Assembly: GCA_902795275.1 (NCBI GenBank)
Contig: CADBKQ010000001.1
Location: forward strand, 124,001-188,000
DNA: 64,000 nt
Direction: 5' to 3'
Origin: an uncultured Eubacteriales bacterium
GTDB taxonomy: Bacteria; Bacillota; Clostridia; Christensenellales; Aristaeellaceae
Positions 7,698 to 41,836 of the stretch are shown piece after piece. Position 1 is the first letter of the stretch. Each line of letters opens with the position of its first letter. Below the pieces are notes generated by a model that worked only from the letters and a program-made list of their open reading frames with translations, was not told the DNA's origin and did no database searches. A program made the position numbers and the translations under genes.

Positions 7698-9620
7698 TCA
7701 ATCCAAATGATTGAAGGGGCCGGGAAGGACGTTCCCATCGGGGTGCGGCGCGCCGGTGCGGTCGCTGCGCACAAACGGGTCGGGGGCGACGGGTTGAATC
7801 TGAGCCGGGTCAAGAATCAGACGCAGGCGTTCCAGCTGCTTTGGCAGGCCGAAGGGCTGGGAGGCGCTGGGAGAGAAAGCGGCCCGTGCGGTTTCTTCGT
7901 TCAGCGAAACATCCAGCCAGGCGTTTTGCCCCGTTTGGTCGAACCCGTAAAACTCTTTCCACGCGGGCAGGTTCAGGCAGTTTTCCGGTTCCGGATACAT
8001 CACCCGCAGATACCCGCCGCGCATGTTGACGTACAGATTGCCCTCGGCTTCGTTGTCGGCGGTGGGGAAGCAGATGGCCGCCTCGCCGCAGTCGTAGAAA
8101 ATGTTGTTGAAGATTTTCGCCTTGCGCGACGTGCCGCCCCGGTCGAAGCCCGCCATGCGGAAGGAAACGGGCTTGGCGTAGTATCCGCCGTAGCGGCATT
8201 TGCCGATCAGGTTGTGGCTGATGTGCAGCCGGTCGGTGCCCTCGCCGTAAATGGCATAGCCGTTCACCACGTCGTGTTCTTTCAGCTTGTACCAGCCGGA
8301 GGAGCCGGGCTCCACGGGAACCTTGGCGGGGTCGAAGCGCCCTTCCACATTCCAGATGATGTTGTTGTCGATCAGGTTCACGCCGTCCCGGGTGCATTCG
8401 ATGAAAATGGCCTCCCGCTGCTCGATGCCGTTGAGGAACAGGTTGCCGGTGATGCGGTTGTTTTCGTTGCCGCAGTCCATCCACAGGTGGTCGGCCCGGA
8501 GCGTGTTGCGGAACACATTGCGGCGGAACAGGGCGTTCACGCTGTTGTGCAGTTTGATGGCTCCGGCCTCCCAGGACAGCTCCATCCTCTGCCAGCCGGT
8601 GCCTTCGATCACGTTGTCCTCGATGAGCATTTCCTCCGCGAACAGCCCGGCAATGCCGCACACGCCCGCGTCGCGGATGGTACAGCCGCGGATGACGGAG
8701 TGGCCGATGGTCTGGCCGGGAAAGTGCTCATGGTGCCAGCATTCGTTGCCCACGTCGATAGCCACGCCGTTGGACCAGTTCACTTCGCAGTCCTCGATCA
8801 CCCAATGGTGGCCCCGGAAAGCGGAAATCGCGCCGCGCTGGGGCACCGGCGCACCGGTGGCGGCGTGCTCGCAGACGAGGCCCTTCACCTTGATGTAGGA
8901 CAGGAAAGGTTCTTCCGGGGCAAAGCACTGCTCCCGCACGGTCAGCTCGATGCGGTGGTTCGCCGGATCATCGTCGCCTGGCAGGCGGAAATGCACCGTC
9001 TGGCCGTTGTGCTCCACCCAATAAGTCCCGTCCGCCTTCGCCATGTCCTGATACAGCGGCACCTGCTTCAGCGGTTTTCCGTCGCAGAACACGCAGCCCC
9101 GTCGGTTCAGGTAGGGCGTCATGTCGGTTTTGTCGTACTCGATGAACAGCCGGTCGTGCAGGATGTTCACCGCGCAGAAGGGGTTATAGCCCCGGAACAT
9201 GTCGGGGTCCAGGCGGTGGGCGTAGATTTTCACGTTGGAAACATCCGGCCCGGGGCCGAAGCCGCGCAGCCGCCAGCCGGTGCTGGGGGAGAAGGCGGTC
9301 ACTTCCTCCGATGCCCGGATCATCACCGGCCCGTCACCAAAGGCTTCATAGCAGATCATGTGTTCCGGGTCTGTCCCGCCTTTTCGCGGGCGCACGCATT
9401 CCCGGTACAGACCGGCGTGGATACGAACCTTGGTGCCGGGCTCCGCCAGGTCTGCGGCCCGCTGGATGGTTTTCAAGGGATACGCTTCGGTGCCGTCATT
9501 CGTATCAGACGCAGCGGGATTCGCGCCGTCAATATAAAGCGTGTTTGTAGATTTGCAGTCTTTTTCCCAGAATGGAAACAGATTTCCGTCCGGCAGAATG
9601 GCGGATAAATCTGGCTTCAT
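7698..9620 (-). CDS. Right-handed beta-helix glycosidase, GH120-like (beta-xylosidase family)
   Basis: 640 residues from the ATG at 9620; the upstream in-frame ATG at 9638 would hide the GGAAGGG ribosome site inside the gene. The N-terminus (DGTEAYPLKTIQRAAD, then HAGLYRE) is typical of parallel beta-helix enzymes, and a beta-sandwich-like insert follows. The pattern WMD at residue 382 and FIE at residue 408 matches the Asp/Glu pair of GH120 beta-xylosidase XylC, as does the preceding AGAIKLH. No signal peptide, so it should act in the cytosol on imported xylosides. It is last in an operon with a sugar ABC importer. GH120 membership rests on recalled motifs; another beta-helix glycosidase family is possible. 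Confidence 0.7.
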   Translation of the reverse strand: MKPDLSAILPDGNLFPFWEKDCKSTNTLYIDGANPAASDTNDGTEAYPLKTIQRAADLAEPGTKVRIHAGLYRECVRPRKGGTDPEHMICYEAFGDGPVMIRASEEVTAFSPSTGWRLRGFGPGPDVSNVKIYAHRLDPDMFRGYNPFCAVNILHDRLFIEYDKTDMTPYLNRRGCVFCDGKPLKQVPLYQDMAKADGTYWVEHNGQTVHFRLPGDDDPANHRIELTVREQCFAPEEPFLSYIKVKGLVCEHAATGAPVPQRGAISAFRGHHWVIEDCEVNWSNGVAIDVGNECWHHEHFPGQTIGHSVIRGCTIRDAGVCGIAGLFAEEMLIEDNVIEGTGWQRMELSWEAGAIKLHNSVNALFRRNVFRNTLRADHLWMDCGNENNRITGNLFLNGIEQREAIFIECTRDGVNLIDNNIIWNVEGRFDPAKVPVEPGSSGWYKLKEHDVVNGYAIYGEGTDRLHISHNLIGKCRYGGYYAKPVSFRMAGFDRGGTSRKAKIFNNIFYDCGEAAICFPTADNEAEGNLYVNMRGGYLRVMYPEPENCLNLPAWKEFYGFDQTGQNAWLDVSLNEETARAAFSPSASQPFGLPKQLERLRLILDPAQIQPVAPDPFVRSDRTGAPHPDGNVLPGPFNHLD

Positions 9621-9635
9621 GCCAACCCTTCCTTT

Positions 9636-9668
9636 CAAAAAGGGGGACGCCTCAAATGAGGCGCCCCT
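9636..9668 (-). terminator. Terminator between binding protein and beta-helix gene
   Basis: On the minus strand GGGGCGCCTC pairs with GAGGCGTCCCC and is followed by TTTTTG. It lies just before the ribosome site of the glycosidase gene and would lower its expression relative to the binding protein. Confidence 0.75.
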
Positions 9669-9689
9669 CGATTTTGTTTTGATGACAGG

Positions 9690-11366
9690 TTACTGAGCGA
9701 CAGCCGCGATTTTGGCGTCCACTTCGACCTGCCACTTCTGGCAGTCATAGTCGAACAGCTGATCATAGCCCAAGCCGTCCATCTCGTCCACCATCTTGTT
9801 CCACAGGGCTTCAAAGTCGTCGTCCGATTCGGCGGCGAACATCTGCCAGGTGTACTTGCAAAGCGCCTTGTTGATTTCGTTGCGCAGGAGCTCAATGTCG
9901 TTGGTGTCGGTAGCCAGGTTGGCCACGCAGTTGGGGCTGATAACGATCTTGTTGTTCTTCTTCATCCAGTCCACGGGATCCTGGGCGTCGAAGCGGGCCT
10001 GCCATTCCTTCTTCATTTCGGTCATGTTCTTGGCAATGTAGGAAGCCCAGTACTTCTGGTCGTAGGTTTCGCCGGTGTTGGGGTTCAGGCAGATGGAGCC
10101 GCACAGCCACTGGTTGATGGCGTTGTTGCCGTCCTGGTATCCGCCGCCGCCGTATTCTTCGGGCACGGGCAGGTTATCCATCAGCGCGTTGTCCTTGTAA
10201 GGGATATATTTGCCGTCCTCGCCGACGATGTAGTTCAGGCCTTCGATACCGCAGTGCTGGAAGGTCAGCCCTTCGGGGCTGGCATACCAGTTGAGGAATT
10301 CCAGGATCTTTTCGTACTTTTCGCCTTCCACCTTGGAGCCGATGCCCCAGACACGGGAGGAGCCGAAGAAGTTGTCGGCGTCAGCGTAGAACATGGCGTC
10401 TTCCACGGGGATGACCTGGAAGGCGGTGCCGTTGTCCATACGATCCTGGCTGTTCCAGAATCCCTGCTGCCAGCTGTACCAGATCAGGTCAACCTGGCCG
10501 TTCTGCAGCTTGCCCACGAAGGCGTTCCAATCCTGCTCGAAGGATTCGGGATCCACCAGGCCCATCTGATACGCTTTGTTGAGGAACTGGGTGATCTTGT
10601 AGTAGCCGCTGTCCTTATCATAGAGCTTGACGAAGGTGTTGTCGGGCTTGAGGATGGCCGCGCCCTTGAACTTGTCGCCGTACCAGGTGGTCAGCTGCAC
10701 CACGTTGGCGGGGCCGGACATGTTGTCGTTGTTGTCCCAGTCGGGCCAGAGGGAGATGGGATAGGCGGGGTCGCCGTTTTCATTGGCGGGATGGATTTCA
10801 TGGATCTTGGCCAGCAGATCCAGCAGGCCGTCCAGATCCTTCACGTCGGGGCTGCCCACAGCCTTGTACAGATCCCAGCGCACCTGGGGAGAGGAGTAAA
10901 TCATTTCACCGGTGACGCCCACGGCGGAGGTGTTCACCATTTCAGCGGGGATGCCGTAGTACACGCCCTCGCCCTTATTCAGGCTGGCGTTGTAGGCTTT
11001 GATCTGCTGATGGAAGGGCTTGAGGTTTTCGATCTCCAGCACGCGGTCGCTGATGTCCTTCACCAGTCCGGCCTCGATGCAGTTGACGAACTTGGATTTG
11101 TCCATGATCAGCACGTCGCCAAGGTTGCCGTCGGCGGCGCGGGTGGCATAGATGCTCTCGCCGGCGACCTGGGGCGCGATAATATTGAGCTCAATATTAA
11201 AGCGATCCTTGACCACCTTGGCGAACCAGCCGGTCTGGATGCCGTGGTAGTTGGCGGCATCATCGTAGAAGTCGATGACCATAGGGGCTTCCTCGGCCAT
11301 CGCGACGGCGGACAGCATGGGGATGACCATGATGACCGTCAGCAGCAGAGACAGAAACCGTTTCAT
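9690..11366 (-). CDS. Extracellular sugar-binding protein of ABC importer
   Basis: 558 residues with a signal peptide (MKRF, hydrophobic core, cleavage near AMAEE, residue 25) and no lipobox cysteine. The body is the family 1 solute-binding type that pairs with LplB/YtcP permeases, with many aromatic residues (WPDWDNN, WYSWQQGFW) suited to stacking on sugars. Two permease genes lie directly upstream and a GH120-like enzyme downstream, so an oligosaccharide such as a xylo-oligosaccharide is a reasonable ligand, though inferred. A ribosome site AAAGGAGG precedes the start. The 240 bases upstream hold heptad repeats that separate it from the permeases. Confidence 0.87.
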   Translation of the reverse strand: MKRFLSLLLTVIMVIPMLSAVAMAEEAPMVIDFYDDAANYHGIQTGWFAKVVKDRFNIELNIIAPQVAGESIYATRAADGNLGDVLIMDKSKFVNCIEAGLVKDISDRVLEIENLKPFHQQIKAYNASLNKGEGVYYGIPAEMVNTSAVGVTGEMIYSSPQVRWDLYKAVGSPDVKDLDGLLDLLAKIHEIHPANENGDPAYPISLWPDWDNNDNMSGPANVVQLTTWYGDKFKGAAILKPDNTFVKLYDKDSGYYKITQFLNKAYQMGLVDPESFEQDWNAFVGKLQNGQVDLIWYSWQQGFWNSQDRMDNGTAFQVIPVEDAMFYADADNFFGSSRVWGIGSKVEGEKYEKILEFLNWYASPEGLTFQHCGIEGLNYIVGEDGKYIPYKDNALMDNLPVPEEYGGGGYQDGNNAINQWLCGSICLNPNTGETYDQKYWASYIAKNMTEMKKEWQARFDAQDPVDWMKKNNKIVISPNCVANLATDTNDIELLRNEINKALCKYTWQMFAAESDDDFEALWNKMVDEMDGLGYDQLFDYDCQKWQVEVDAKIAAVAQ

Positions 11367-32477: not shown

Positions 32478-33404
32478 CTATGCGTTCTTCCCCCCGGCCA
32501 GGGTGATTGCCCCGGCCGGGTTTTCTTTGCCTGTTTCCTTCAGAATGCGGCCCAGGCAGGTGTCGTGACAGGTGAGCACCGCTTCGCAGAAGGCTTTTTC
32601 CTCGATCACGCCAAGGCTGGTCATGCCGTCGGGCGACAGCACGTGGATCATGTGGTATTTTCCCGGCGTCAGTTTTCCCAGCAGGGAACGCACGGGCATT
32701 CCCGCCCCGGCCGCCACCGTTTCCACCGGCAGCACCTTCTGCCCGTCCAGCCATTGGCGGCGCGCGATCAGGCTGGTCACGTATTTCGCCGTGCCATGCC
32801 TGCCCTGCATGGCGGCGGCATAAATCAGATACAGCCCGGCGAACGCGGGCGCGAGCACGATTTTGCCCCGGAAGGCGAAAAAGAGTGTCAGCCCGCAGAG
32901 CAGCAGCCCCACCCCGGAGGAAGCCAGCTGCAAGCCCCGCAGGGTTTCTTTCTGCGGCAGGATGCGGTTCAGCGCGGCAGAGAGCATCCGCCCGCCGTCC
33001 AGCGGCATGGCGGGCAAAAGGTTGATCACCAGCAGCGCTAAGTTGGCGTGGATGAACGCCCCGGTCAGATCAAACGGCAGAACGCCCTGCCGGTACAGGA
33101 ACGGGGCCAGTACGGCCCCGCACAGGCTGGCCAGCGGCCCCGCCGCGGCCAGGAGAAAGCGGCGCGGGGGCGGCGCTTCTTCCAGGTTCGCTATCGTCAT
33201 CAGCCCGCCCAGCGGCGTAAATTCCACTTCATCCACCCGCAGGCGCAGCCATCGCGCCGCGCAGAAATGCCCCGCTTCGTGCAGCGCCAGCGCCGCCAGC
33301 GTCGGCAGCAGCCTTTTTCCCATGCCGGTCAACGCGCCGACGATAAGCATCAGCAGGAAAAGCGGATGCGCCTTCACCCGGCACCCGCCCAGCCGCAGGG
33401 TCAT
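32478..33404 (-). CDS. SpoIVFB-like intramembrane metalloprotease (M50)
   Basis: 308 residues with several membrane helices. Zinc ligands are in ALHEAGH near residue 43-47 and in NLLPAMPLDGGR near 135; both motifs sit inside hydrophobic helices as in site-2 proteases. A CBS-like cytosolic region follows. In Bacillus SpoIVFB cleaves pro-sigma-K in the mother cell. The assignment is strengthened by the SpoIVFA-like gene whose stop overlaps its start (ATGA). Confidence 0.82.
   Translation of the reverse strand: MTLRLGGCRVKAHPLFLLMLIVGALTGMGKRLLPTLAALALHEAGHFCAARWLRLRVDEVEFTPLGGLMTIANLEEAPPPRRFLLAAAGPLASLCGAVLAPFLYRQGVLPFDLTGAFIHANLALLVINLLPAMPLDGGRMLSAALNRILPQKETLRGLQLASSGVGLLLCGLTLFFAFRGKIVLAPAFAGLYLIYAAAMQGRHGTAKYVTSLIARRQWLDGQKVLPVETVAAGAGMPVRSLLGKLTPGKYHMIHVLSPDGMTSLGVIEEKAFCEAVLTCHDTCLGRILKETGKENPAGAITLAGGKNA
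32491..32526 (+). terminator. Terminator of MoxR operon within the convergent gene
   Basis: CCCGGCC pairs with GGCCGGG and is followed by TTTTCTTT. It lies inside the last codons of the convergent SpoIVFB-like gene. Confidence 0.55.
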
Positions 33405-34057
33405 GGTTTTCCCTCCCCTCTGGGAATGAGGAACGCGGCGGGGTCAATGGCCCGCCCTGCCCGGCGCACTTCCAGCACCGCCTGCTTTCCGGGCAGCGCC
33501 GTACCCAGGCGGGTGCCGGACGTCACTTCGTCCCCCTCCTGCACGTTCACGGAAGCGAGGTTGCAGTACAGGCTTTCCAGCCCGTTTTCGTGCCGCACGC
33601 GCACCACTTTTTCTTCGTCCAGCCCATGGGCTACGCTCATTACCTGGCCCGCGGACACCGCGTAAACGCCGCCGTTATCGGCGCTGTATCCCAGATAGGG
33701 TTCCTGTTCGCTCCACGGGTGCAAAACCTGGCCGAAGCACGGCGCGGTCAGCTCGGCGTGCAGGTCGGTCTCAAAGAATACTGCCATGCTCTCGGGCAGC
33801 AGATTGCTGACAAAGCTGATTTTTCCCAGGCTGCTGTCCCAATTCGCGTCGATCATCTCCTGCACCGCCGTCAGCACGGTTTTCCCCGTGGGCAGCTGCG
33901 CGTTCCGGATCGCCACCACGGACAGCGTCAGGATGCCGGCAAAGGCGAAATTCCGCGCCAGCTTTTCTCCCCAGCGCGGCTTCTGTGCATGCTGATAGAC
34001 GATGCCGCTGTCCTTCTTTTCTTCTTCCGCTTCCTTGCGCACGGTAGGCCTGATCAT
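33401..34057 (-). CDS. SpoIVFA-like protein with degenerate LytM/M23 domain
   Basis: 218 residues: basic cytosolic head, one membrane helix at about 37-52, then a peptidase M23-type beta domain (GGVYAVSAGQV, VRHENGLESLYCNLASV, LEVRRAGRAIDPAAFL). Metal ligands of active M23 enzymes (H-x3-D and H-x-H) are not in place, so it is probably not a hydrolase. SpoIVFA holds SpoIVFB inactive and is itself cleaved by forespore proteases; gene order and overlap support this role. Confidence 0.72.
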   Translation of the reverse strand: MIRPTVRKEAEEEKKDSGIVYQHAQKPRWGEKLARNFAFAGILTLSVVAIRNAQLPTGKTVLTAVQEMIDANWDSSLGKISFVSNLLPESMAVFFETDLHAELTAPCFGQVLHPWSEQEPYLGYSADNGGVYAVSAGQVMSVAHGLDEEKVVRVRHENGLESLYCNLASVNVQEGDEVTSGTRLGTALPGKQAVLEVRRAGRAIDPAAFLIPRGEGKP

Positions 34058-34700: not shown

Positions 34701-34909
34701 CGGTTAATCGTCCCCTGGCTGATTGCAAAACAGATTTTTAGATTTGTTCATTCATGCGCAAGCTGTGGATGTTTTATCCATTGATCTGGACAGGCGAATG
34801 AAAACAGAGTATCATAAACAGGCGGAAAAGAAGGCGCAGGTGAAGCGGCGGCGGGAGGCAAGCTGACGTTTGGATCATACTGCGCCTTATGTATGCGGGA
34901 GTATTTCTG

Positions 34910-35332
34910 ATGAACAAAAAGAAACTGTTTCTGATTGCGGTGAGCGCCGCCGCCATCGCGCTGGCCGTCATGCTGGCGGCTGGGGCCGTTGTCCTGTTTC
35001 TGAACGGCTCCGCGCGGAAAGCGGAAAATCCCATGGAGCAGATCTATACGCGGGAACAGGCTGCAGGCGCCCTGGCCGCCGTCGCGCCGTTTTTCGTACT
35101 CTTTGCGGGATTGTCGGCGGCAGGCGTTATCCTGGGGATCAAGGATGAAAACCGCGGAAAACAAAAAACGACAGTCAGGCGGATGGACAAGCCAAAGCAC
35201 AAGGGCTTGATCCAGGCGGCGATGGCTGTCGCCGCTGCTGCGCTGATCGTTGCCGGCATCATCAACGGCAGCGCCCTGGATGTGCTGATCAAAGCAATCA
35301 CGATATGTTCGGAGTGCATCGGCCTTGGATAA
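34910..35332 (+). CDS. Membrane protein ending in a CD1871A-type CXXC motif
   Basis: 140 residues with three hydrophobic helices. The last 42 residues (GLIQAAMAVAAAALIVAGIINGS, then ITICSECIGLG) match the small CXXC family known as CD1871A, normally about 40 residues on its own. Here it is preceded by two extra membrane helices. The start follows GGGAG; an in-frame ATG 21 bases upstream is less likely. It overlaps the ferredoxin/thioredoxin gene, so the CXXC probably exchanges electrons or disulfides with that protein. Confidence 0.65.
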   Translation: MNKKKLFLIAVSAAAIALAVMLAAGAVVLFLNGSARKAENPMEQIYTREQAAGALAAVAPFFVLFAGLSAAGVILGIKDENRGKQKTTVRRMDKPKHKGLIQAAMAVAAAALIVAGIINGSALDVLIKAITICSECIGLG

Positions 35333-36809
35333 AAAGCATGCAAACAAATCCTCCCGGCGGATTCACCGCCCGGCGACGCGGCGGCTGGTGCAGCTTTATG
35401 CCGCGCTGCTGCATAACGCCTATCTCAGGGGCTTTCTTTCGGGAGAAATCTATCAGGGGAACGCGAAATACGCCTGCGTTCCCGGGTTCAACTGCTATTC
35501 CTGTCCCGGCGCGGTGGGGGCCTGTCCCTTGGGTGCGCTCCAGAACGCTCTGGCCGCCACGGGGCATCGGGCGGGCTGGTATGTGCTGGGTATCCTGATG
35601 CTGTTCGGGGTGACGCTGGGCCGCACCGTCTGCGGCTGGCTGTGTCCCCTTGGGCTGATACAGGAAGGTCTGCATAAAATCCCCACCCTCAAAATCAAAA
35701 AAAGCCGCTTTACGCGGGCGTTGTCCTGGCTGAAATATGCTTTCCTGGCGGTATTCGCGGTGGCAGTTCCCCTTTGGTACGGCCTGAAATACGACCTGCC
35801 CCTGCCGGCTTTTTGCAAGTACATCTGTCCGGCGGGCACCTTTGAGGGCGCTGTGGGCCACCTGGCGAACCCGGCCAACGCTTCCATGTTTTCCATGCTG
35901 GGCTTGCTGTTCACGCGGAAATGGGTGATCCTGCTGATCATCGTTCTGGCGTGCGTGTTCTGCTATCGCGGCTTTTGCCGCTTCGTCTGCCCGCTGGGAG
36001 CGATCTACGGGCTGTTCAACCGGTTCTGCCTTGTGGGCGTGAGCGTGGACGCCGGGCGCTGCAACGGGTGCGGGGCGTGCGTGCGGCATTGCGGTATGGA
36101 CGTGCGCCGGGTGGGCGACCGCGAGTGCATCCAGTGCGGCGATTGCATGGCGGTCTGCGCTCAGGGCGCCATCTCCGTGAAAGCGGGGAAGATCGTCCTG
36201 AAAGGCCCGGAAGGACGCCCGGAAGCCCGGACGCGGGAAAAGCGCCGGGGCCGCGCGCTGTGGGGGATAGCCCTGGCGGTTCTCTGCTTCGCCCTTCTCT
36301 GGTTCAATTTCCTCGACCCTTCCATCCCGCGGAGCAGCCAGGCCGGACATTCCTGGGAAAGCACGGCGGCGGTGGGAAACCGGGTGGGAGAACAGCTGCC
36401 GGACTTTACACTGACGTGCTATGACGGGTCGGTGTTCCGCCTGGCGGAAACCCGGGGAAAGATCACCTTCATCAACCTGTGGTCGACCTGGTGCACGCCC
36501 TGCAAAAAGGAACTGCCCTATTTCAGCGACCTTTACCTGGCCCATCCGGATGACATCGCCATGGTGATCGTGCATCCCTCCATGGTGCTGGACAGCCCGG
36601 AAGACTACCTTTCCGACAAGGGATACGCGATGCCGTTCGCCACGGACACGGAGGACGCCGTGTGGAGCGCTGTGGGCGGAAGCGCCACGCTGCCCCAGAC
36701 CGTCGTGCTGAACAGGAACGGGGAAGTGGTGTACAATGCCGTGGGTTCCGTCACGCCCGAATTGCTGGCCGCGCTCTACGCCGAAGCGGACGGGAGCGCG
36801 CCGAAGTAA
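35325..36809 (+). CDS. Fused NapH-like 4Fe-4S membrane protein and TlpA-type thioredoxin
   Basis: 494 residues from a TTG that overlaps the upstream stop. The N-terminal part has about four helices and the CxxxCP motifs of NapH/YccM-type proteins (CGWLCPLG, CKYICP, CRFVCPLG), plus CYSCPGAVGACP near the start. Two 4Fe-4S sites follow: CNGCGACVRHC and CIQCGDCMAVC. After another helix comes an outside thioredoxin domain with NLWSTWCTPCKKELP. Electrons would pass through the membrane part to the extracytoplasmic CXXC. TlpA-type proteins act in cytochrome or disulfide reduction; the partner is unknown. Confidence 0.85.
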   Translation: MDKKHANKSSRRIHRPATRRLVQLYAALLHNAYLRGFLSGEIYQGNAKYACVPGFNCYSCPGAVGACPLGALQNALAATGHRAGWYVLGILMLFGVTLGRTVCGWLCPLGLIQEGLHKIPTLKIKKSRFTRALSWLKYAFLAVFAVAVPLWYGLKYDLPLPAFCKYICPAGTFEGAVGHLANPANASMFSMLGLLFTRKWVILLIIVLACVFCYRGFCRFVCPLGAIYGLFNRFCLVGVSVDAGRCNGCGACVRHCGMDVRRVGDRECIQCGDCMAVCAQGAISVKAGKIVLKGPEGRPEARTREKRRGRALWGIALAVLCFALLWFNFLDPSIPRSSQAGHSWESTAAVGNRVGEQLPDFTLTCYDGSVFRLAETRGKITFINLWSTWCTPCKKELPYFSDLYLAHPDDIAMVIVHPSMVLDSPEDYLSDKGYAMPFATDTEDAVWSAVGGSATLPQTVVLNRNGEVVYNAVGSVTPELLAALYAEADGSAPK

Positions 36810-36877: not shown

Positions 36878-37642
36878 TCAATCCGCGTTTCCCGGGGGCA
36901 GATGGTAGATGCGCCGGAGCTCAGCGGTATCGGTGCCGTCCGGGTTTTGGACGATCAGGGGCGGTTCAATGATGAGGCCGGAACGCACGCTCAGCATGGC
37001 TTCCATCAGCGCCAGCCGCGCGGGGCGGGATACGTTGGCGTGTACCAGGCGCAGGCGTTTGGGCTCCAGCCGGTGGCTTTGCAGGGTGGAAAACGCTTCG
37101 GTCAGCCGGGCGGCGGGCAGCATCAGCACCAGCCGCCCCCGGTCTCGCAGCAGCCATTCCGCGGCGGCGGCCACGTCGTCCAGGGTGCATTCGCTTTCCT
37201 GCCGCGCCGTGCGCAGGGCGGCCTTGGGGCTGGGCAGGGATGCGGCGCTGGGGCTGTAAGGCGGGTTGCAGATCACCAGGGTATAACCCGCATGGGGGAG
37301 AAAAGCGCGGACTTCCCGCAAATCCTGGTTATGAATTGTGATGGTATGTTCCAGCCCGTTCAGCCGCATGGTGCGCGCCGCCCGTTCCGCCGCGTCGGGC
37401 TGGATCTCTACTGCGTCGCAGGTGATCGTATTCTCCCGCCCGTAGAGCAGCAGCGGCAGGATGCCGGTGCCCGTGCCCAGGTCGCAGACCCGGCTGCGGG
37501 GACGGACGCGGGCGAAGTCCGCCAGCAGCACCGCGTCCATGCCGAAGCGGAAAGCGTCAGGGGACTGGATCACGCGCAGGCCCGCGAATTGCAGGTCGTC
37601 CACCCGTTCGCCGGGAAGCAGCAGGCCGTTCATTTCACTCAT
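36878..37642 (-). CDS. tRNA1(Val) (adenine-N6)-methyltransferase-like
   Basis: 254 residues. An N-terminal recognition strand (RVIQSPDAFRFGMDAVLLADF), the SAM-binding VCDLGTGTGILPLLL and the catalytic ICNPPY are typical of TrmN6/YfiC-like amino-methyltransferases that modify A37 of tRNA-Val. The ATG at 37642 overlaps the last codons of the SpoIID gene (TATGAGTGA), so the two are coupled. Substrate identity within this family cannot be read from the sequence alone. Confidence 0.85.
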   Translation of the reverse strand: MSEMNGLLLPGERVDDLQFAGLRVIQSPDAFRFGMDAVLLADFARVRPRSRVCDLGTGTGILPLLLYGRENTITCDAVEIQPDAAERAARTMRLNGLEHTITIHNQDLREVRAFLPHAGYTLVICNPPYSPSAASLPSPKAALRTARQESECTLDDVAAAAEWLLRDRGRLVLMLPAARLTEAFSTLQSHRLEPKRLRLVHANVSRPARLALMEAMLSVRSGLIIEPPLIVQNPDGTDTAELRRIYHLPPGNAD

Positions 37643-39707
37643 ACAGCGCAAACTCCAGGTACTGAATCATGCAGTAGCCGCTGACGCCCTGGTATGTGAC
37701 GGCGCACCAGGTATCGCCCACGGCGGTGATGGTGGCGTATTGGCCCTTGGGGATTTCCAGTAGGATGCGGGTATCGGTGGAGCAGCCTTCCCGCAGGTTC
37801 AGGGTGCTCAGCGGGGTGTTGACCAGGCCCAGCACGGGCATGGACAGCTCCCGCATGGGTTCGACAAATACGGCGGGAGGCGCGGCGGTGGGCTGTTCGA
37901 TGGCTGCAAAGGTCAGGTATTTCGTCATGGCGTAGCCCTGAATGCCTTCGTACACCACCCGGCACCAGGTATCGCCCTTGTCCAGCACGACCACCTGGTC
38001 ATACTGCGGGATGGTGCAGAGCACCTTGGCGCTGTTCTTTGGCTCCCGCCGTAGGTTCAGCGAGCCTTTCTCCGTGGTGACGGTGGCGGAAAGGCCGACA
38101 GGCGGAACGGAGGGCGCGGGCGTGGCGGGGGCAAACGTCGGCGTCGTGATCTCCGCAAAGGAAAGATAGCGGGTCATAACATAGCCTTCGGTGCCTTCGT
38201 AAACCGTTCCGCACCAGGTATCGCCTGTTTCGTAAACGGAAATCTTGGCGTATTGGGGAATGGTGCGCAGTACCTTCGCGTGGCTGTCCGGGGCGGCGCG
38301 CAGGTTCAGGGAGCCTTCCGCCGTGCTGACCCAGGCGGTTGCCACGGGAGACGCGGGAAGCGGGGCGGCTGTCTCCGGTACGAAGGGCTCCGCAGTCGGC
38401 AGAGGCGCGTCGGTGGGCAGCAGCGGCATGTCCAGCGTATACAGCACCCGCACGCAGCCGGGATAGTAGAAGCCCAGAATCTGGTCGTAGGTGTAGCCCA
38501 TGCGGGCCATCTGCATGGCTCCCCGCTGGCTCATGCCCACGCCGTGGCCGTAGCGCCGGGCGGAGATCACAAAGGCGTCGCCGCTTTGCGTCACCGACCA
38601 GAGCTCGTTTTTCGTGCTGTTGATGCTCATGCCCAGCGCGCCTTCCAGCTCGCTGAATATATCGAAGGTGATAATGCCCGTGGCTACCTGTCCGTTCAAC
38701 GTGTAGCTGACCTCGAAATCCATTTTGCCGTACAAACGGCTGGGGTAAGCAAATCGCGGCGAATGGGGCGTAATGGCATGTACGGCGGTGACGGCGGCCC
38801 CGTCTCCGAAAGCCGCGGCGGCCTTTTTATTCAGCAGACCGGCCAGCCTGCTGCTCTGCGGATTGCTGCCGCTCACGCGCACGCTGAGCACCCGCGCGTC
38901 GGGATTGCTCAGGTCGTAGGGGTCGTCCTGAATGATCAGGTAGTCCGGCCCGGCCACGTTCCAGGCGTTCTTCACCGTTTCCGTCTGCCCGCCGTTGGAG
39001 GCGGTGTAATAGGTGGCGGTATATTCGCCGCCGTTCTTCACCGCGATGCCGCAGGTTTCGTCCACGGCCCGGCGGCAGTTTTCGTTGCCGGAGGGCGTGC
39101 CGTTGTACATCTGGTCGGCGGTGGTGTCCACCAGGTCGAAGAGCGCGGTGGCCTGCTTCATGGCGTTCAGGGTATAGGTGCGGGCGGCGACGGCCTGGGC
39201 TTTCAGCGCTTCCAGGCCGGAGGAATTGCCCATTTCGTAGGGCAGCACGCCGTAGAGGTAATCCTCGATGTATACCCGGGCCACCACATACAGCGTGGAA
39301 CCCTTTGCCGTGAATTGCAGGTCGCCGGGGTAAATGTTCTGCGGGACCCGGCTCTGGGCGATTTTCACGCCGCCGGACAGCCGCGTCAGGCGGAAGGACG
39401 CGCCCAGATTGCTGACCGCGCCGCCCGCCGTCAGGGACAGCTGGCCGGTGCTTTTATTGAAGCTCACCGTCGCCGTGCTGCCGCTGTCGAGCGTTTGCCC
39501 GTTCACGGTATAAGCGCCGCTGAACGTCAGTTTCAAGGTGGATGGATTTCCCAGGGACAGAAGGCGCACCCGGACGATGCCGTCCTGGAAGCCGCCTTGG
39601 CTTAGGGGCGCGCTTTTCGGGCCTGCCTCGGCAAAAGCCGGAAGCATGGTACATTGTAAAATCAGCATGCCGATTACGATCAGGTAGGTCAATCCGCGTT
39701 TGTACAT
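37635..39707 (-). CDS. SpoIID/LytB domain protein with three SH3-like repeats
   Basis: 690 residues with a signal peptide (MYKRGLTYLIVIGML, ending near AFA-E, residue 26). The SpoIID domain spans about 110-400, with YLYGVLPYEMGNSSGLEALKAQAVAARTY containing the catalytic-type Glu, and the closing GHGVGMSQRGAMQMA. It probably trims stem-free glycan strands. Three bacterial SH3-like repeats follow (each with SLNLR or TLNLR, then IPQY and GDTWC). An upstream in-frame start lacks a site; AGGAAAACG precedes the chosen ATG. Confidence 0.87.
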   Translation of the reverse strand: MYKRGLTYLIVIGMLILQCTMLPAFAEAGPKSAPLSQGGFQDGIVRVRLLSLGNPSTLKLTFSGAYTVNGQTLDSGSTATVSFNKSTGQLSLTAGGAVSNLGASFRLTRLSGGVKIAQSRVPQNIYPGDLQFTAKGSTLYVVARVYIEDYLYGVLPYEMGNSSGLEALKAQAVAARTYTLNAMKQATALFDLVDTTADQMYNGTPSGNENCRRAVDETCGIAVKNGGEYTATYYTASNGGQTETVKNAWNVAGPDYLIIQDDPYDLSNPDARVLSVRVSGSNPQSSRLAGLLNKKAAAAFGDGAAVTAVHAITPHSPRFAYPSRLYGKMDFEVSYTLNGQVATGIITFDIFSELEGALGMSINSTKNELWSVTQSGDAFVISARRYGHGVGMSQRGAMQMARMGYTYDQILGFYYPGCVRVLYTLDMPLLPTDAPLPTAEPFVPETAAPLPASPVATAWVSTAEGSLNLRAAPDSHAKVLRTIPQYAKISVYETGDTWCGTVYEGTEGYVMTRYLSFAEITTPTFAPATPAPSVPPVGLSATVTTEKGSLNLRREPKNSAKVLCTIPQYDQVVVLDKGDTWCRVVYEGIQGYAMTKYLTFAAIEQPTAAPPAVFVEPMRELSMPVLGLVNTPLSTLNLREGCSTDTRILLEIPKGQYATITAVGDTWCAVTYQGVSGYCMIQYLEFALYE

Positions 39708-39768
39708 TCGTTTTCCTCCGTTCGTTTTCCATCGTACAATCGATTGCTGCAATCTCGTAATCATATGC

Positions 39769-40037: not shown

Positions 40038-40688
40038 ATGGAAAAGGCAAAAGACCCGCTGATGAAACGCAGGATCATGCTGGCCCTGATCGGGATGCTG
40101 CTGGCGGGCGTCAGCGTGGGCATTTTCAAGCGGGCGTTTTTCGGGGTCGATCCCTTCCAATGCTTCTGCGGCGGGCTGGCCAACGTGATTCCCATTGATT
40201 TCGGCACCCTGTACATGCTGATCAACGCGGCGCTGCTGGCGGTGGTGTTTTTCCTGGACAGGCACTACATCGGCATTTCAACCTTCATCAACCTTTTCCT
40301 GCTGGGCTATGTGGCGGTGTTCACGGAAAAGGGCCTGGCGGCGCTGCTGGGCGAGCAGGGCTTATTGGGCAGAATCGTCCTGCTGATTGCCGCCATCATC
40401 CTGACCTGCATTGCAGCATCGCTGTACTACACCGCCGACCTGGGCGTGTCCGCCTACGACGCCATTCCGCTGCACATCGCGGACACGAAGCCGAAGCTGT
40501 TCGGCCGGGTGATGCCCTTCCGCTTCATCCGCGTTTTCTGTGATCTCATCTGCACCCTGACCGGCTTCCTGCTGGGGCTGATGCCCGGCATCGGAACGGT
40601 GATCACCGCCCTGTTCATGGGGCCGCTGATCGCCTTTTTCCGCAAGCGCCTGTCCGACCCGCTGCTGAACTGGGGGAAAAACGCATGA
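40038..40688 (+). CDS. YitT/YczE-like integral membrane protein
   Basis: 216 residues with five to six membrane helices. GVSVGIFKRAFFGVDPFQCFCGGLAN and a mirrored half with GVSAYDAIPLHIAD are the two halves of the YczE/YyaS/YitT family, whose function is unknown. A GTG directly before the ATG is an alternative start; AGGAG lies upstream. Its stop overlaps the start of the Card1-like gene (ATGA). Confidence 0.72.
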   Translation: MEKAKDPLMKRRIMLALIGMLLAGVSVGIFKRAFFGVDPFQCFCGGLANVIPIDFGTLYMLINAALLAVVFFLDRHYIGISTFINLFLLGYVAVFTEKGLAALLGEQGLLGRIVLLIAAIILTCIAASLYYTADLGVSAYDAIPLHIADTKPKLFGRVMPFRFIRVFCDLICTLTGFLLGLMPGIGTVITALFMGPLIAFFRKRLSDPLLNWGKNA

Positions 40689-41836
40689 AAACCAATATTG
40701 AACTGTATGACGACCGGCCCATTGAAAACGTGCTGGGCACGGAAATGTTCCGCCCCGAGGAAACGGTGTTCATCTGTCCCCAGGAGGTGGTGGAGGACAA
40801 GGAGCTGCACCGCTCCATGGAAAACTACTTTGCTTACCGGGGCATCCCCGTGAAGCTGACCTTCGTGGCCGCCAGCCTGCTGGACACGGTGAAGGTGGAA
40901 AAGACCCTGAAACGGGTGCTGGAATCCCACGAGGACTGCGCCATCGACATCGCCGGGGGCAGCGACGCCGCGCTGTTCGCCGCGGGCACCATCTCGGGCG
41001 ATACGCCGGTGTACACCTACAGCCGGCGGCGCAACATGTTTTTTGAAATTAAAAACGCGCCATTCGCCCGGGGCGTGGCCTGCACCGTCAGGCTGGACGC
41101 GGAAAGCTGTTTCCTCATGGCGGGCGGCACGCTGCTGCCGGGCCGGGAGGACAACGCGAAGCTGAAAGAGCGTCTTCCCCAGATCGACGCCCTGTTTTCC
41201 GTCTACGCCGACCACCGGCGCATCTGGAACCGGCAGATCAGCTATTACCAAAAGCTCTCCTCGGGCGAGGATTCCCTGAAAGCCGAAGGCCCGCTGACGG
41301 GCAAGGCCGACAACGGGCGCGTGACGGCGGATGAAGACATGCTGCGGGATCTGGAAAAAGCCGGATTGATCAGCCAACTGACCGTCACGGAGGAAAGCGT
41401 TTCCTTCCGCTTCCCGGATCAGACCGTGCGCTTCTGGCTGCGGGACATGGGCTCGGTGCTGGAATTGCAGGTGTACCGGGCGTGCCTGGCCGCCGGGTGC
41501 TTTGACGACGTGATCCTCAGCGCGGTGGTGAACTGGCGGGCCGACGAAAAGCGCCGGGACGCCGTGACCAACGAAATCGACGTGATGGCCGTGCGGGGGG
41601 TGCAGCCGGTGTTCATCAGCTGCAAGACCTGCGAGATCAAAACCGAAGCGCTGAATGAACTGGCGATTCTCCGCGACCGGTTCGGCGGCAAAGGTTCCCG
41701 GGCCATCATCGCCACCTCCGCGCCCTCCTCCAAGAGCCGCAATGTCATGCGCAAGCGCGCCGCGGAATTGGACATCGAAGTGATCGAATGGGAGGATCTG
41801 CCGCTGGAGAATCTTGTTGAAAGGCTGAGACGATGA
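40685..41836 (+). CDS. Card1-like protein (DUF1887): CARF-like plus PD-(D/E)XK nuclease
   Basis: 383 residues. The N-terminal third (ENVLGTEMFRPEETVFICP, then DIAGGSDAALFAAG) has the Rossmann-type CARF layout with a glycine/serine ligand loop. A winged-helix-like middle follows, and the C-terminal nuclease fold shows NEIDVMAVRG, then VFISCKTCEIKTEAL: an Asp and a Lys in PD-(D/E)XK positions, with Ser-Cys where many members have Glu. Card1/Can2 enzymes are turned on by cyclic oligoadenylate in type III CRISPR immunity. No CRISPR genes are near; it overlaps a YitT-like gene and a response regulator instead. Confidence 0.75.
   Translation: MKTNIELYDDRPIENVLGTEMFRPEETVFICPQEVVEDKELHRSMENYFAYRGIPVKLTFVAASLLDTVKVEKTLKRVLESHEDCAIDIAGGSDAALFAAGTISGDTPVYTYSRRRNMFFEIKNAPFARGVACTVRLDAESCFLMAGGTLLPGREDNAKLKERLPQIDALFSVYADHRRIWNRQISYYQKLSSGEDSLKAEGPLTGKADNGRVTADEDMLRDLEKAGLISQLTVTEESVSFRFPDQTVRFWLRDMGSVLELQVYRACLAAGCFDDVILSAVVNWRADEKRRDAVTNEIDVMAVRGVQPVFISCKTCEIKTEALNELAILRDRFGGKGSRAIIATSAPSSKSRNVMRKRAAELDIEVIEWEDLPLENLVERLRR

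Follow-up and report, generated by a model that had tools for sequence, protein, structure and literature searches.

Exported thioredoxins need electrons from across the membrane, and the textbook supplier is the CcdA/DsbD family. The question of how this need is met by other means is raised by two overlapping genes, referred to as gene A and gene B, in the window analysed here, a stretch of 64,000 nucleotides from an uncultured Eubacteriales bacterium. An earlier note on this DNA had suggested that their products could carry electrons from cytosolic donors across the membrane to extracytoplasmic disulfides. The features of the pair are as follows (protein residues are those of gene B where cysteines are numbered).

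34913..35332, + strand: gene A, a membrane protein whose C-terminal CD1871A domain is preceded by two extra hydrophobic segments (open reading frame and profile match)
35222..35329, + strand: CD1871A domain (NF040920), one transmembrane helix and an amphipathic tail (residues 102-137 of a query starting at 34919)
35306..35317, + strand: C-S-E-C motif near the C-terminus of gene A, predicted to be extracytoplasmic (computed from the translation)
35325..36809, + strand: gene B, NapH-like polyferredoxin membrane domain, fifth transmembrane helix (TM5) and TlpA/ResA thioredoxin (open reading frame and profiles)
35475..35525, + strand: outer loop 1 with C51, C57, C60 and C67 (alignments and charge counts)
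35631..35645, + strand: inner CX3CP motif, C103/C107 (alignments)
35814..35828, + strand: CX3CP motif of outer loop 3, C164/C168 (alignments)
35976..35990, + strand: inner CX3CP motif, C218/C222 (alignments)
36060..36158, + strand: ferredoxin-type 2x[4Fe-4S] segment on the cytosolic side, with the eight cysteines from C246 to C278 (Pfam and alignments)
36258..36314, + strand: TM5, predicted to take the thioredoxin outside (hydrophobicity and charge analysis)
36381..36767, + strand: TlpA/ResA-type thioredoxin domain (profiles, PDB and Foldseek)
36492..36503, + strand: thioredoxin active site C-T-P-C (computed from the translation)

Domain composition of the two proteins

The description of gene A in the earlier note, a CD1871A-type CXXC tail fused to extra helices, agrees with the profile search. 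NF040920, the model of the CD1871A family, matches the C-terminus marginally (32.6 bits for a cut-off of 32), the protein ends in CSECIGLG and thus carries the C-terminal CxxC tail, and two additional hydrophobic segments lie ahead of the CD1871A helix. The ATG at 34913, with a GGAG 11 nt upstream, is a likelier start than the alternative ATG at 34889. The window's genome holds a single CD1871A copy by genome-wide search, and one copy of full-length gene B.

The start codon of gene B is a TTG within the 3′ end of gene A, so that the two genes overlap by 8 nt, and no in-frame ATG was found near this start. PF12801 (Fer4_5) matches in three stretches (45.4 bits for a cut-off of 22), and Fer4_7, Fer4_9 and Fer4 all exceed their cut-offs in the 2x[4Fe-4S] segment, which places the protein among the NapH-like/Fer4_5 polyferredoxins. 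It lies below the cut-offs of the NapH models proper (TIGR02163, 62.8 vs 213.05 bits; NF007013, 47.5 vs 234 bits), which also match 13 of 13 homologues. The ferredoxin part is followed by Redoxin/AhpC-TSA and ResA-like matches, so that the overlap with a gene for a NapH-like protein fused to a TlpA-type thioredoxin, as first described, is confirmed. The thioredoxin domain has the fold and WCxxC of TlpA/ResA-like proteins (PF08534, 65.3 bits for a cut-off of 26.6); ResA is its closest match, and StoA is also related (PDB match to ResA, E 2.3e-19; best Foldseek match the ResA-type 4nmu). With the ResA equivalog NF002854 it scores 78.8 bits, below the cut-off of 170. Pfam returned no PF02683 (CcdA/DsbD) in either protein, and no FMN-binding domain in gene B or in seven neighbouring genes. 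The genes flanking the pair, an RNase H upstream and a methyltransferase downstream, look unrelated to it. Further along the window, 40685-41833 encodes a C-terminal Card1-like endonuclease domain (PF09002, 31 bits).

A conserved three-part module

By comparison across genomes, the CD1871A/NapH-like pair is the local form of a conserved module of three parts, TlpA, CD1871A and NapH-like protein; the general form of this module is a three-gene set, of which the pair in the window is one fused variant. A survey of 398 genomes, sampled evenly across the phylum, detected CD1871A in 60, with 15 of these matches below the family cut-off, and the NapH-like protein in 64 (67 matches; profile A3, E <= 1e-30). 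All 60 CD1871A matches lie directly upstream of a NapH-like match that shares their contig and strand. The distance is -26 to +281 nt for 56 of them, and 466, 683, 826 and 2281 nt for the others, the last gap containing a reverse-transcriptase-like ORF. Among the 41 close relatives, a set that includes the window's own genome, the same order was seen by eye for 28 of 28 CD1871A matches in 27 genomes. Failure of the pair to be conserved together, the outcome named as refuting the proposal, is therefore absent. In genome G055, a reverse-transcriptase-like ORF (L159, 5873-7204) separates CD1871A from the NapH-like gene, and a transposase-like ORF lies further upstream (8540-9760).

Seven NapH-like matches are unpaired. 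In three of these (G154, G076 and G118), the profile overlooked a divergent CD1871A-like ORF that lies immediately upstream; the remainder are second copies in G174, G055 and G337, and the gene of G420 (L224). The latter has a different arrangement, in which no CD1871A was detected and a flavodoxin-like ORF adjoins, and its product possibly serves a different outer acceptor.

Among the 28 loci of the close relatives, CD1871A is short in 11 (44-72 aa as called) and carries extra helices in 17 (144-294 aa). Since the extended CD1871A protein and the gene B fusion both recur within the window's genus, and the CD1871A/NapH-like pair recurs across the phylum, the arrangement is far more than chance. 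The survey of co-occurrence and fusions proposed in the earlier note thus finds the pairing phylum-wide and the fusion in the window's clade; elsewhere, a separate thioredoxin gene follows immediately downstream in a few loci or lies upstream in others. Comparison of 16 module neighbourhoods by eye yielded TlpA as the sole recurring partner, and a conserved wider operon was rejected on this ground. The plasmid and phage collections yielded one clear case, an annotated trio on a plasmid of Peptoclostridium acidaminophilum, and scans of the viral contig collection yielded no relative, the one locus returned (L180) being unrelated. The parts are already known as families, CD1871A being named in NCBIfam and the trio visible in the annotated Peptoclostridium record. 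The module is widespread among anaerobic bacteria and apparently unstudied: within the open-licence PMC literature, no paper was found that names CD1871A or joins NapH-like proteins with TlpA.

The exported thioredoxin partner

A TlpA profile, with TGA read as selenocysteine, was run on the stretches around the 59 module loci outside the window. A TlpA gene lies near 47 of them, on the same strand as the NapH-like gene as judged by eye, and a simple script found an export signal in all 47 proteins (29 lipoboxes, 18 signal or transmembrane segments). In 19 of the 47, the match holds exactly one TGA, always at the first active-site cysteine (UxxC; L159, L160, L167, L173-L176, L204, L206, L208-L211, L213-L216, L219 and L221). 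These 19 genes probably encode selenoproteins; SelB exceeds its cut-off in 18 of the 19 genomes concerned vs 8 of the 23 other genomes searched.

The remaining 12 loci are without an adjacent TlpA, and include all eight in which a serine replaces C164 (L161-L164, L181, L192, L193 and L200). They bring in a different explanation, in which the NapH-like/CD1871A pair serves another outer acceptor, such as a reductase or a response to O2 or metal, and TlpA is one of several clients or an accessory protecting the outer cysteines. NapH-like proteins do serve many acceptors, according to passages of PMC8238504. However, the window's clade has TlpA and the NapH-like protein as a fusion, and no partner other than TlpA was seen to recur among the 16 neighbourhoods inspected; we consider this explanation improbable.

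Cysteine pattern and topology

Among 92 distinct NapH-like sequences, C57, C60, C67, C103, C107, C168, C218 and C222 are invariant, and the eight ferredoxin cysteines are kept in all except two that are gapped there (these column counts include one duplicate of the window sequence, which the spacing count below excludes). Mean K+R per residue is 0.22 and 0.18 in the N-terminus and the loop after TM2, and 0.07 and 0.05 in loops 1 and 3. By the positive-inside rule, the former two are thus predicted inside and the latter two outside, and the charge pattern therefore places C103, C107, C218 and C222 at the inner side and C51, C57, C60, C67, C164 and C168 at the outer side. TM1 is weakly hydrophobic and below the calling threshold used. 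The thioredoxin follows TM5, which is itself preceded by a strongly positive cytosolic stretch, and is predicted to be extracytoplasmic; a cytosol-facing domain, which would speak against the electron route, is thus opposed by this prediction as well as by the export signals of every neighbouring TlpA.

Five or six outer-side cysteines of the NapH-like part are conserved, the four invariant ones being joined by C51 and usually by C164. A strictly paired C51/C164 disulfide, suggested by their joint loss in an automatic alignment, was rejected: the wider set and the spacing count contradict it, an equivalent of C51 being present in every sequence with its spacing shifted. The spacing of loop 1 and the motif of loop 3 co-vary in three types, x5/Cx3C (73 sequences, 21 of which missed the scripted loop-3 pattern; four of these were inspected and have CX3CP, the rest being assigned from aligned columns), x6/Cx2C (11) and x4/S (8). 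The inner CX3CP pair is also present in canonical E. coli NapH, which is not known to have a comparable outer set. Two AlphaFold models reached a mean pLDDT of 58.1 (about 90 in the thioredoxin part and about 30-65 in the membrane part) and 39.6, and the membrane part is unusable because the 13 input sequences were too few.

In the CXXC of CD1871A, the glutamate is replaced by Q or S in some sequences and both cysteines are kept, their presence having been a requirement of the tail-pattern search. This constancy bears on the place of CD1871A in the module. Because CD1871A accompanies the NapH-like gene also at loci that have no neighbouring TlpA (60 of 60 loci, compared with 47 of 59 for TlpA), it may be a cluster ligand instead of a thiol shuttle. 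In this form of the relay, its CXXC and two of the five to six cysteines in the outer loops of the NapH-like protein would bind an Fe-S cluster between the subunits, from which TlpA would be reduced directly. Against such a need, C57, C60, C67 and C168 would already be enough for one cluster, and the intersubunit arrangement is considered rather unlikely.

Inverse distribution with CcdA/DsbD

PF02683 is present in 270 of the 398 genomes, namely in 16 of the 60 with CD1871A vs 254 of the 338 without, with membership read by eye (Fisher p 1.1e-12, a value that ignores shared descent). In families f51, f56, f59, f78 and f105, again by eye, the CD1871A genomes are without PF02683 and their listed kin without CD1871A have it; in f43, the two are mostly exclusive, apart from two genomes that have both, in one case weakly. 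PF02683 is absent from all module genomes in 16 of 27 families. PF13386 exceeds its cut-off in 2 of the 44 module genomes negative for PF02683 and is not above it in the other 42, and a search of the window's genome returned no PF02683 and no PF13386. Among the 41 close relatives, PF02683 occurs in 2 of 27 module genomes vs 3 of 14 others (p=0.32, not significant), since many of these genomes have neither system.

This distribution also bears on the direction of electron flow. Sequence does not fix the direction and Fe-S wires are reversible, so that the module might run inwards, oxidizing exported thiols and passing the thioredoxin electrons to the cytosolic ferredoxin pool in a DsbB-like manner. 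ResA and StoA, to which the thioredoxin domain is closest and related, are however reductive thioredoxins, and CcdA, with which the module is inversely distributed, is a reductant carrier; inward flow is thus regarded as very improbable.

A proposed transmembrane reductant relay

Gene A and gene B would together form a transmembrane reductant relay that does the work of CcdA/DsbD with other chemistry, a reading we consider probable. In the scheme that we infer, which extends to cluster occupancy and number, donor, direction, order of steps and target, a cytosolic one-electron donor would reduce the two ferredoxin-type clusters of gene B, ferredoxin being the natural guess in such anaerobes. 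Electrons would pass next to a cluster on the inner CX3CP motifs (C103/C107/C218/C222), and from there to an outer centre made up of the additional cysteines, the invariant C57, C60, C67 and C168 with C51 and usually C164. At this centre, one-electron chemistry would give way to dithiol chemistry, with the CXXC tail of CD1871A as a disulfide beside it; this is the least certain step. The thioredoxin domain, reduced at the outer centre or the CXXC, would keep exported proteins reduced, for example at the paired cysteines of SpoVD-like penicillin-binding proteins (PBPs).

The electron route to extracytoplasmic disulfides put forward in the earlier note is supported by the inverse distribution with CcdA/DsbD and by the 19 selenocysteine TlpA genes. 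Counting against the relay are the module genomes that also carry PF02683 (16 of 60) and the loci without an adjacent TlpA (12 of 59). More tentatively, the module could represent a separate class, a thioredoxin reductase that is embedded in the membrane and driven by ferredoxin. Its outer Fe-S centre, lying beside a disulfide (C51/C164 and the CD1871A CXXC), would make dithiols outside the cell from single low-potential electrons. Such a reductase would take the place of CcdA/DsbD across much of the phylum's anaerobic part, the acceptor often being a selenocysteine thioredoxin.

Relation to known systems

In CcdA, a single membrane dithiol receives its electrons from cytosolic thioredoxin. 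As proposed for the module, CcdA/DsbD supplies an extracytoplasmic TlpA thioredoxin, either a lipoprotein or anchored in the membrane, with reducing power from the cytosol; the module differs in that it would employ a polyferredoxin with Fe-S clusters together with a distinct CXXC protein, with no PF02683 in either protein or in the genome. In ferredoxin:thioredoxin reductase, dithiols are generated from one-electron donors at a [4Fe-4S] centre that lies next to a disulfide. The logic proposed here is alike by analogy only, gene B having no sequence match to that enzyme, being membrane-embedded and acting across the membrane. In the CcdA-Etrx-MsrAB2 system of pneumococcus, CcdA drives extracytoplasmic TlpA thioredoxins, as stated in part of PMC3914529.

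NapH-like polyferredoxins pass electrons through the membrane to flavinylated outer domains in the passages of PMC8238504, where the NapH-like set is not linked to TlpA. They share with gene B a NapH-like polyferredoxin serving a modular outer redox domain; gene B differs in having a thioredoxin instead of an FMN-binding domain, five or six extra outer cysteines and a near-obligate CD1871A partner. Because this transfer to outer flavin domains is already described, the relay would be a variant of known transmembrane wiring.

As to secreted partners with paired cysteines, which the earlier note proposed to look for, the same genome has a SpoVD-like class B PBP (G000:C14:51605-53491, L241; 582.6 bits against the SpoVD cut-off of 688). 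Its cysteines (RCWK...NSCNP) lie 37 and 55 residues past the active serine, at the two positions that we take to be those of B. subtilis SpoVD. The likeness to the CcdA-StoA-SpoVD system of B. subtilis thus comprises an exported TlpA thioredoxin and a PBP with the same two cysteine positions; the differences are the absence of CcdA and another electron source, and the PBP is here a candidate target, not a finding. An excerpt of PMC9334274 cites the SpoVD disulfide of B. subtilis as a target of the exported thioredoxin StoA, and reports that the corresponding site in C. difficile binds zinc. For cysteines to be kept reduced at this site, electrons would have to be supplied outside the cell. In the window, an M50 peptidase and an M23-domain gene form a putatively spoIVFB/spoIVFA-like pair (32478-34057, minus strand), and a SpoIID domain is followed by bacterial SH3 repeats (37635-39764); because of these spoIVFA/B-like and SpoIID-domain genes, the organism may sporulate.

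Significance

Exported TlpA proteins are retained in many of the surveyed genomes that have no CcdA/DsbD family. Should the module supply their electrons, this would account for the way in which exported proteins are kept reduced in anaerobes that have no CcdA. It would also give a role to CD1871A, a named but unstudied family of small proteins, and would mean that thiols outside the cell are reduced by way of Fe-S wiring; if confirmed, the chemistry would be that of a new kind of thiol-reduction machine.
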